Below the pieces are notes generated by a model, which was not told the origin of the DNA, did not search any database, and saw only the letters and a list, made by a program, of their open reading frames with translations. From NCBI RefSeq assembly GCF_004214795.1, contig NZ_CP035928.1, positions 2,418,001-2,482,000 on the forward strand: a DNA stretch of 64,000 bases, in the 5' to 3' direction. Below are positions 3,432 to 13,724 of the stretch, in pieces; within the stretch, counting starts at the first letter, position 1, and each line of letters opens with the position of its first letter. The position numbers and the translations under genes are program-made. The DNA comes from Malaciobacter pacificus (lineage in GTDB: Bacteria; Campylobacterota; Campylobacteria; Campylobacterales; Arcobacteraceae).

Positions 3432-3529
3432 ATTTAAAATAGATAATAAAAAGTATAAGAATAATTTTAACCCTAGTTTTAATAACAGTTTATTGTTATG
3501 CTCACAATCTAATTGAAGAGGAAAAATAT

Positions 3530-3781
3530 TTGAAAATAAAAGAAAGTAAAACTATATCATTAGCTTTAGGAAGTGGAGGTGCTAGAGGTTATGCTCATAT
3601 TGGAGTTATTGAGACTCTTGAATCACAAAGATATGAGATAAAATCAATAGCGGGTTCATCTATGGGAGCTTTAATTGGTGGACTTTATGCAGCAAGAAAA
3701 TTACAAGAGTTTAAAGAGTGGATATTAACTTTAAACTATTATGATATTTATAAGAGCCGCTTGCAAATTCCACCATCATAA
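3530..3781 (+). pseudogene. Patatin-like phospholipase, N-terminal stump cut by an IS
   Basis: The sequence shows the patatin oxyanion motif ([15 protein letters not shown]) and the nucleophile elbow GSSMGAL, with about 65 family residues in all. It then runs into the IS end at 3754 and stops at 3779-3781 within the element. The catalytic Asp and the rest of the domain are absent, and nothing resembling them lies on the far side of the IS. In-frame coding continues upstream of the TTG at 3530 to 3443 and reads as a good signal peptide ([18 protein letters not shown]). There is no ATG/GTG/TTG at its head, only ATA ATA. The gene is dead for phospholipase activity. Confidence 0.8.
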
Positions 3782-5246
3782 ACTAGTGAATTTGTAAACC
3801 TACTAAGCTTATCAAGCAGATCTTTTAAACTTTTAATCATTTTACCGCTTTATGGGTCAATTTTAGATAAAAAACTATTATTGGGTGCGTGCTTGATGGT
3901 TGAGTTTTAAAAATGGCTAATTTTTAGTGTTTTTAGCTAAAAGTTATGTTACCAGTTTCAAACTCTGATGAATACAAACTGATAAAATACCAAATGCTAA
4001 AACAGAAGCTACTTTTGTAGCTCCTTTATAATAAATATTACTGCATCCAAAGTCTTCTTTGAGGTATTTATTGACTCTCTCAACCATACTTCTTTGATTA
4101 TAGTGATGGGTATCTAAACTTTGAGTAAGGTTTAGAATTTTAAATTTCTTTTTTTCATCTTTTATAAGTTGAATTTTTTCTTTTAACTCTTTGGAGTTCT
4201 TCGGATTGATATCAATAAGCGGTCTATGATTTAGTTTTTTGGAAAAATCTCTGATAATATTGCTGTCGTATCCTGCATCTTGTAAGTCATAAAGATATGA
4301 TACTTTTTTGCTTGTCTCGTTTATAAGAGGAAGTGCTACTGAGCTATCATGAACATTTGCCCCTGAATAAATAGCAGTAATAGGGATATCTCCATCTACT
4401 ACACTGATATGGAGTTTCCCTCCTATCCATGTTTCAAAGTTGCCTTTGGAATTCTGTTTTCTTCCAACTCCACACTGCGTTGATACCAAAGATAGCATCT
4501 GCTTTGTGGTTTTCATATCTTCTTGTTGCTGCAAGATACTGGGTGTTTTAGGCTCTCTTGTTTCACCTTTTTTAGGTCGTCCTCTTCTTTTTGGTTTAAA
4601 CTTTTCTTTTTCTACTTTTACAGGTTTTTCTCTCAGTGGTATTTTTGTTGCATCACTTGCATTATAAAAAAAGAGTGTATCCCTTAGATACTCCTTCACA
4701 AACTGCTCATGCGTCTTTTGTGCAATTTTAAGCTCACTGAGCTCCTTAAAGACTCTACTAAATTTAGACTCACTTGGAATATCGTTTTTATATCTCCACC
4801 CACACAAGATCCTCAGCGTTCTATCACTATGAAGTCTATCGATAAGGTCTCTGGTTGTTTGGATATTGTAAACACTCTTTGCAATAAATGCTCGTGCAAT
4901 CTCTTCTCTATGCTTTGGAGTGTTTGTAATAGATACGACAGTGATATTTTTTTCAATCGCAGCAAAGTCTAATATCTTAATAAGCTTTTGCTCTTTATTT
5001 GACAACTCTTCTAATTGAAGCTCTCTTTTCAAAGAAGGAAAAAGTGAATTTTCAAGATTTAAAACCTTAGTCCACATTTTAGATAGACTTGAAGATATTT
5101 TTGGTAGAATAATTTCCATAAGTTGAATCGCTCTTCTGTTAAATTTTTGTAGTAAAAAATTATAACTTATCTGAAGTTTGATTCAACTTTTTAAAATTTA
5201 AATCAGCTTAAATTACGGGTTGTTTTTTATAATCTGCAAGTGGCTC
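3754..5246. mobile_element. Insertion sequence, about 1.49 kb, DDE transposase of the IS5/IS1182 type
   Basis: The ends are imperfect 16-bp inverted repeats: GAGCCGCTTGCAAATT at 3754-3769 and, read on the minus strand, GAGCCACTTGCAGATT at 5246-5231 (14 of 16 match). The single transposase gene runs on the minus strand. I see no convincing target duplication: the left flank ends in TTATAA and the right flank begins AATTAT. The right end lies 2 bases beyond the stop codon of the diguanylate cyclase gene. The left end truncates the patatin gene, whose 3' part is missing from the window. This points to a deletion next to the element rather than a simple insertion. About 190 bp between the left end and the transposase stop carry no gene. 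Confidence 0.75.
3944..5119 (-). CDS. IS transposase, DDE superfamily (IS5/IS1182-like)
   Basis: The protein has 391 residues. The likely catalytic acids are Asp in HISVVDGDIPITA, Asp in LQDAGYDS and Glu in RSMVERVNKYLKEDF, in the order and spacing of DDE_Tnp_1 enzymes. An N-terminal region (about residues 75-135) resembles the DUF772-type helical domain. Around residues 178-184 lies KRRGRPKKG, a textbook AT-hook core (RGRP) in the linker ahead of the catalytic domain. The frame is complete from ATG to stop, so the enzyme could be active. Exact family placement between IS5, IS1182 and unclassified groups cannot be settled by eye. Confidence 0.8.
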   Translation of the reverse strand: MEIILPKISSSLSKMWTKVLNLENSLFPSLKRELQLEELSNKEQKLIKILDFAAIEKNITVVSITNTPKHREEIARAFIAKSVYNIQTTRDLIDRLHSDRTLRILCGWRYKNDIPSESKFSRVFKELSELKIAQKTHEQFVKEYLRDTLFFYNASDATKIPLREKPVKVEKEKFKPKRRGRPKKGETREPKTPSILQQQEDMKTTKQMLSLVSTQCGVGRKQNSKGNFETWIGGKLHISVVDGDIPITAIYSGANVHDSSVALPLINETSKKVSYLYDLQDAGYDSNIIRDFSKKLNHRPLIDINPKNSKELKEKIQLIKDEKKKFKILNLTQSLDTHHYNQRSMVERVNKYLKEDFGCSNIYYKGATKVASVLAFGILSVCIHQSLKLVT

Positions 5247-8433: not shown

Positions 8434-8832
8434 TCAATAATCATCAATAAAATATAAATAATAATTAATATCTCTTATTTCATCATCGGTAACACTATTT
8501 TCAAGATTAGGCATTATATCTGGATTAAATGTATACTCAATCAAAAGTTCGCTTGTCTCTTCTAATTGAGTTTTAATAGAAGTATCCCTTCTAACTTTTA
8601 ATTTAAGCTCATTTAAAATCTGATTACCAGCTGGAGCTAAAAGCTTAAAAGTTTTGTCCCCATCTTTTAAAAAATCATCAAAGTACTCTTGCTTATAAGT
8701 AGATTTTAAATGACATGCAAAACATTTCTCTTCAAAAAGTTTCTCACCTAATTTATAACGTTCTTCATTGAACTCTTCAGGTAAAGCAAAAAGACAATTA
8801 ATATAAAAAATAATTAAAATTAAAAATTTTAT
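8434..8832 (-). CDS. Small periplasmic c-type cytochrome with apparent ATA start
   Basis: No ATG, GTG or TTG opens this frame, but coding is clear over 132 residues. A signal peptide begins KFLILIIFYINCLFA and is followed by LPEEF. One haem-binding motif CFACH lies near residue 40, and a C-terminal MPNLENSVTDDEIRDINYYL reads like the Met-ligand and last helix of a class I cytochrome c. The sequence AAAAAGGA is followed by exactly six bases and then ATA AAA TTT. ATA at 8832 therefore takes the place of the start codon in the spacing used by neighbouring genes. Start codon use is inference. The electron-transfer partner is unknown. Confidence 0.72.
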   Translation of the reverse strand: MKFLILIIFYINCLFALPEEFNEERYKLGEKLFEEKCFACHLKSTYKQEYFDDFLKDGDKTFKLLAPAGNQILNELKLKVRRDTSIKTQLEETSELLIEYTFNPDIMPNLENSVTDDEIRDINYYLYFIDDY

Positions 8833-8896
8833 GATTGATCCTTTTTAAATAATGATATTATATTTGAAAAGCCCTTTAAAAGTATAATTTTATAAA

Positions 8897-8934
8897 TAAA
8901 AAAAGGGAAGATAGTAAAACTACCTTCCCTTTTT
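8897..8934 (-). terminator. Rho-independent terminator of the cold-shock gene
   Basis: A hairpin with arms GGGAAGATAGT and ACTACCTTCCC (8905-8929, one G-T pair) has an A-run to its left, which is a T-run on the minus strand. It lies about 25 bases after the cold-shock gene stop. Confidence 0.85.
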
Positions 8935-8952
8935 GCCATATAAAATTAAATA

Positions 8953-9171
8953 TTATAAAGCAGTTACGTTCTGAGCTTGAGGACCTTTTTGACCTTCACC
9001 TATTTCAAATGATACTTTTTGACCATCTTCTAATGATACTCTTCCATAACCTGTGTTATTAATTTGTTTAAAGTGTACAAATAAATCTTTTCCACCATTA
9101 TCTGGTTGAATAAATCCAAATCCTTTTTCACTATTAAACCATTTTACTGTTCCATTTTCTAAATTTGCCAT
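8953..9171 (-). CDS. CspA-family cold-shock protein
   Basis: This 72-residue single cold-shock domain carries both RNA-binding motifs, KGFGFIQ (RNP1) and DLFVHF (RNP2), and the usual C-terminal KGPQAQNV. Family members act as cytoplasmic RNA chaperones that melt secondary structure. It is monocistronic, with its own terminator downstream and a roughly 140-base leader region before the tRNA-Cys gene. A GGGAAAAAAA ribosome site precedes the ATG. A long leader is typical for cold-regulated members, but I could not identify a specific thermosensor fold. Confidence 0.95.
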
Positions 9172-13040: not shown

Positions 13041-13724
13041 ATAATAAAAGTATTAATGATAGAAGATGATTTAGAACTTGCTCAAATCATCACTGACTAT
13101 TTAAAATCATTTGATATTGAAGTTACTAATATAGATAGCCCATATACGGGCTTATCTATGATAAGTGTAAATAAAGATTTTGAACTTTTAATCTTAGATT
13201 TAACTCTACCAGAAATTGATGGATTAGAATTAATCCCAAAAATTAGAGAAAAATCAGATATTCCTATTATTATCTCAAGTGCTAGAGATGATATTTTAGA
13301 TAAAGTTATGGGATTAGAGCGAGGTGCTGATGATTATTTACCAAAACCTTATAATCCAAGAGAATTACAAGCTAGGATTAAAACTATTTTAAAAAGAATG
13401 GATTCGAATTCTTCAAAATCAAAAGATGACAATACTCCTATTAGTATATTTGAAGTTAGAGAAAATGATATGCAAATATATTTTAAGGGTGAAGCCCTTA
13501 CTTTAACTTTAGCAGAATATGATATTTTAAAACTACTTATACAAAGAAATCATGGAGTAGTAGCTAGAGAAGATTTTATTTATGCAAGTGACAATATTGA
13601 AGATGATTCGTCTTTAAAAAATATTGATGTAATTATTTCAAGAATTAGAACAAAATTATCAAGAATTGATGATTCAAAAACATACATAAAATCTGTAAGA
13701 GGTATTGGATATCAGTTAATATGA
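13041..13724 (+). CDS. cprR: OmpR-family response regulator, CprR-like, with apparent ATA start
   Basis: The receiver domain has the acidic pair in LMIEDD, phospho-acceptor Asp in LLILDLTLPEIDG, Thr/Ser in IIISSARDD and Lys in YLPKPYNP. A winged-helix DNA-binding domain follows from about residue 130. Starting at the first ATG (13056) would remove most of the first beta strand and leave 21 bases after the AGGA. Reading from ATA at 13041 gives IKVLMIEDD behind the initiator residue, with AGGA exactly six bases upstream. I therefore annotate ATA as the start; this is inference. The stop overlaps the kinase start. The likely role is envelope-stress regulation with the adjacent HtrA. Confidence 0.88.
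   Translation: MIKVLMIEDDLELAQIITDYLKSFDIEVTNIDSPYTGLSMISVNKDFELLILDLTLPEIDGLELIPKIREKSDIPIIISSARDDILDKVMGLERGADDYLPKPYNPRELQARIKTILKRMDSNSSKSKDDNTPISIFEVRENDMQIYFKGEALTLTLAEYDILKLLIQRNHGVVAREDFIYASDNIEDDSSLKNIDVIISRIRTKLSRIDDSKTYIKSVRGIGYQLI

Follow-up and report, generated by a model that had tools for sequence, protein, structure and literature searches.

The window analysed here, a stretch of 64,000 nucleotides from Malaciobacter pacificus, carries on its minus strand a gene for a short c-type cytochrome with ATA in the position of its start codon (Table 1). The frame runs over 136 open codons from 8844 to 8434 (AAA GGA TCA ATC ATA AAA TTT TTA... TGA), with an in-frame stop just upstream, and an intrinsic terminator separates the gene from csp. 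A preliminary description of this DNA had stated that no ATG, GTG or TTG is available as a start, and indeed the first such codon is codon 97 counted from the ATA; an ORF finder restricted to these three codons keeps only 36 aa, in line with its prediction that standard gene finders would miss the gene. It had also placed AAAAAGGA six bases 5' of the ATA, with which the sequence agrees, and the ATA is the sole Shine-Dalgarno (SD)-spaced start candidate. Canonical starts in the genome most often have the AGGA-N6 spacing (83 of 273 AGGA-to-first-NTG distances), and the reported recurrence of this spacing in the window is seen at the TTG of ilvD (9802), the GTG of htrA (11609) and three further starts (ATG 39773, ATG 40837 and GTG 63372). 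A promoter of the gene's own at TATAAT is possible but unproven; a promoter scan listed another, weak site (8880-8852) and not this one. In the product, we take the Met of the Met-Pro pair to be the probable distal haem ligand, from what is known of cytochromes c. The match to Pfam PF00034 (Cytochrom_C) is borderline, at 20.7 bits for a gathering cut-off of 21.3, and an AlphaFold model of the 132 aa made without an alignment has a pLDDT of 40, too low to be informative.

Table 1. Features of the cytochrome locus and genes with AUH (AUA, AUU or AUC) starts
Feature	Position	Strand	Basis or remark
c-type cytochrome paralogue, 132 aa, periplasmic (predicted)	8434..8832	-	ATA start 8832-8830, TGA stop 8436-8434; open frame and alignment to 32 family homologues
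ATA at start position	8830..8832	-	sequence; aligned with the conserved ATG of homologues
Shine-Dalgarno AAAAAGGA, 6 nt 5' of ATA	8839..8846	-	sequence; element common to homologues; commonest spacing in genome
TATAAT, possible -10 box of the cytochrome gene's own promoter	8857..8862	-	sequence reading alone
Signal peptide IKFLILIIFYINCLFA	8785..8832	-	sequence; aligned to homologues' MK...FA leaders
CFACH haem c attachment motif	8710..8724	-	translation
Met-Pro, aligned with the family's invariant MP	8539..8544	-	alignment
Intrinsic terminator of upstream csp gene (8953-9171)	8900..8934	-	scan; separates csp from cytochrome gene
OmpR-type response regulator after htrA	13041..13724	+	ATA start, AAAAAAGGA-N6-ATA; AUA/AUU/AUC start conserved in family
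HD-like protein, 560 aa, weak dGTPase/HD-like match	L155:14380-16062	-	AUH start
DEAD-box RNA helicase, intact, own genome	L229:9988-11262	-	SD-spaced ATC is the only candidate start

We searched 104 genomes of the family Arcobacteraceae for homologues of the cytochrome, and most carriers have one strong homologue; homology to this family of cytochromes is clear (E=1e-28 to G098). The preliminary description had proposed that an alignment of homologues would show whether they begin at this codon with ATG, and they do: in all 32 that were read out at the start codon, AAGGA-~N6-ATG aligns exactly with the AAGGA-N6-ATA-AAA of the cytochrome gene. We conclude that the start is placed correctly and that an ATG has changed to ATA. 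An AUH start was found in none of these homologues. The alignment also bears on the suggestion that translation begins one codon upstream, at the ATC 8835-8833, or at another codon. The ATC is likewise an AUH codon and in frame, but it lies only 3 nt from the AGGA, and both the start of the family and the commonest SD spacing favour the ATA; we consider this very unlikely, the least probable of the alternatives.

The genome also encodes a full-length paralogue with an ATG start, a 162-aa c-type cytochrome (G000:C1:44031-44486) with 40% identity to the short one. The short cytochrome shares with this long Arcobacteraceae form the signal peptide, the CxxCH motif, the MP in register, the SD spacing and the start position, and is 39-43% identical to it. 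It differs in having ATA instead of ATG and in lacking 15 aa before the MP and about 15 aa at the C-terminus. The internal loss takes away 15 residues of which 8 are family-invariant in the alignment; both the K-T-C-L-G-V-H-F segment before the MP and the C-terminal N-V-N tail of the family are deleted, which identifies the short cytochrome as a divergent paralogue and not an orthologue, and the C-terminal LYF block is retained. The short form lies at the end of a very long branch. Every strong match in the 104 family genomes is the long ATG form, and peptide patterns found no close orthologue of the short form in GTDB contigs. Residues are conserved at 31 of 59 family-invariant sites and at 27 of 73 variable sites, a modest difference (p=0.053) that, taken with the lost segment, suggests that constraint on the short form has been relaxed or redirected. 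The earlier statement that the gene is complete thus stands as regards the intact frame, the signal peptide and the CFACH motif, but the product is a shortened, fast-diverging paralogue.

How long the frame has been maintained was assessed by simulating drift without selection, starting from the paralogue in the same genome or its closest homologue. Drift to 42% identity introduced 6.7-7.2 stops on average and left at most 1 of 400 runs stop-free; the cytochrome frame has 0 stops, which argues that it was under selection through most of its history. After 5% amino-acid drift, by contrast, about half of the simulated copies are still stop-free, so if the start change killed the gene, the event was recent. 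A recent start-loss pseudogene of this kind, a redundant and relaxed paralogue whose ATG became ATA too recently for any stop to arise, would agree with the full-length ATG paralogue in the same genome (G000:C1, ~44 kb), with the fast divergence and the losses inside the protein and at its C-terminus, and with the pseudogenes and insertion sequence nearby (a patatin fragment at 3443-3781, a transposase at 3944-5119 and a broken patatin at 2413937). We nevertheless consider it unlikely, although it is the main rival of our preferred reading. The frame is intact, the SD is unmutated, and other intact genes of the genome demonstrably tolerate or use AGGA-N6-ATA, which is also conserved in the family (see below), so that a gene could lose its ATG and still be expressed. 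We note that the patatin-like fragment (+ strand), cut short beside the IS transposase, reads TAG-ATA-ATA where a homologue (L083) reads TAG-ATG-ATT, and that another patatin copy, which lies immediately to the left of the window (G000:C1:2413937), contains two in-frame TAA codons.

The preliminary description treated the ATA as an isolated oddity, a view that does not hold: AUH starts recur in the genome and, in other genes, are conserved family-wide. The genome is a 2,657,991-base single contig (100% complete) from which 864 kb of stretches were sampled, and genome-wide totals are extrapolations. In this sample we counted in-frame codons that lie before the first NTG and have coding sequence behind them. 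AAGGA or AGGAG at a spacing of 5-7 precedes 7 of 236 ATA, ATT or ATC codons and 3 of 1901 other codons (p=1.7e-5). Among scrambled SD controls, motifs that keep an AGGA core also score, as expected, and those unrelated to the SD are not enriched in this genome. Genome-wide matches to AGGA-N-ATAAAA were set aside as evidence in themselves, as they number 87 against 132 for the reversed pattern and are thus not in excess, and were retained only when heading open frames that have no NTG start. The long intact genes in which an AUH codon is the only SD-spaced candidate before the first NTG are those for the response regulator (13041), the 560-aa HD-like protein, a DUF234 protein, a 262-aa membrane protein, a 146-aa protein and the DEAD-box helicase, the last with ATC; under looser criteria an ABC1 kinase and an NMT1/SBP histidine kinase join them. 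A prepilin-like gene (IKAFSLLEITVVVLLIGI, L156:6873-7304, + strand) apparently starts at ATT. Similar cases in the samples from relatives, with names that are putative readings of the sequence, are a flavoprotein in G097 and, in the related genome G005, an FtsK-like N-terminus (L254:12102-14342, - strand), the latter apparently starting at ATA.

All 36 readable Arcobacteraceae loci of the response regulator have an AUH codon at the start (AUU in 18, AUA in 12, AUC in 6 and ATG in 0), and in every one the SD lies at a spacing of 6. Several of these loci have an in-frame stop one codon 5' of the AUH, which makes a longer frame impossible there. The differences among loci at codons 3-5 are synonymous or conservative (K/Q-V/I-L), which indicates that these codons are translated and that the start does not lie at the ATG of codon 6; annotation from that downstream ATG would cost the protein 5 residues. 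Of the 39 closest loci in GTDB-named contigs (Aliarcobacter, Arcobacter, Poseidonibacter, Malaciobacter, Halarcobacter and MAGs), 38 have AUH at this codon, whereas 37 of 40 more distant loci (Sulfurospirillum-labelled, Hydrogenimonas, Helicobacter, Sulfurovum and others) have ATG or GTG. The HD-like protein has an AUH start in all 29 family copies that could be read, 25 with AUA and the rest with AUU or AUC, with the caveat that in some copies an ATA one codon further upstream is the likely start and that in-frame NTG codons lie upstream in a few. Homologues of the ABC1 kinase and the DUF234 protein are mostly AUH, and four homologous copies of the SBP kinase that were read have ATG or GTG. 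Judged from these codons, the SBP kinase and the cytochrome, which has ATG elsewhere, look like recent recruits to AUH starts. The evidence for AUH starts across Arcobacteraceae is stronger than that for the cytochrome by itself.

These comparisons also weigh on a more trivial explanation, that a base-calling or assembly error hides a true ATG in the cytochrome gene. A single transition in one genome would suffice, but the genome is a complete single contig, the other genes of the window are full-length open frames save one IS-truncated fragment, and AUH starts occur in other genes here. Since dozens of other assemblies independently show starts of this class, the class is not an artefact of this one, and we regard such an error as very improbable. 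A count of interrupted genes was discarded as a control for errors, being too noisy, with tandem genes that share a frame making up most of the cases.

Our preferred reading, to which we assign a probability of roughly 0.7, is that the cytochrome gene is real and weakly translated from AUA. Here the 30S subunit would bind the AAGGA upstream of the ATA, and the normal fMet-tRNA (anticodon CAU) would recognise AUA by two cognate base pairs, with a mismatch at the third position and with support from the SD. IF3 normally penalises a third-position mismatch at the start codon, and this penalty would leave a small amount of preprotein, which would have Met as its first residue, be exported and receive haem c. 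We infer that initiation occurs at the AUA and that the product serves as a low-abundance periplasmic electron carrier. For the wider pattern, we think it likely that a set of Arcobacteraceae genes (the response regulator after htrA, the HD-like protein, the ABC1 kinase, the DUF234 protein and others) is selected for AUH and not AUG, as a family-wide translational throttle probably read by IF3, which new genes like that of the cytochrome can join by one G-to-A change. At the start of the response regulator the third position is A, U or C, with G in 0 of 36 family members, and AUG is usual outside the family, which suggests selection for weak initiation; avoidance of G at conserved AUH starts in turn suggests that low expression is wanted in these conserved genes. 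An altered IF3 or initiator tRNA was considered as the cause and rejected. Nothing unusual is seen in IF3 when it is aligned with 29 relatives, infC begins with TTG in nearly all Campylobacterota genomes read (L188-L217), unlike the AUU of E. coli, and the two fMet-type anticodon arms of the genome are both CAU, the UAU variant being absent; recoding is thus not indicated.

Gene finders limited to ATG, GTG and TTG would miss the cytochrome gene and would truncate or drop other AUH-start genes. The pattern also enables a direct test of near-cognate starts as conserved dosage control beyond autoregulation of the infC type. A search of the open-access literature found no published description of AUH starts in Arcobacteraceae (nothing relevant came up for ATA starts in Arcobacter), and AUA, AUU or AUC start codons go unmentioned in a Ribo-seq paper on C. 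jejuni.

The closest matches to the cytochrome gene are Listeria rsbW, in which an ATA start gives reduced protein (PMC13068326), and E. coli rpoS, in which ATG>ATA lowers RpoS up to 5-fold (PMC12864459). Each is a single ATG>ATA change that lowers the protein and does not abolish it, although both arose as laboratory mutants and are not wild-type genes. Initiation at AUA in E. coli is given as ∼1% in the figure of Hecht et al. 2017 quoted in PMC12864459. Because published AUA starts give reduced protein, expression of the cytochrome is expected to be low. The wider pattern resembles that of S. aureus, in which infC, ccpN and citZ start at AUA and cvfC1 at AUU (PMC13009471). There too an SD is followed by an AUA or AUU start and initiation is reduced, to ∼10-30% of AUG for ccpN and citZ in reporters, and the start codons of ccpN and cvfC1 are conserved (PMC13009471). 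The genes are different, however, and the cases per S. aureus genome are few, whereas here several such genes occur in one genome, and AUH starts are conserved across the whole family with A, U and C interchangeable at the third position.
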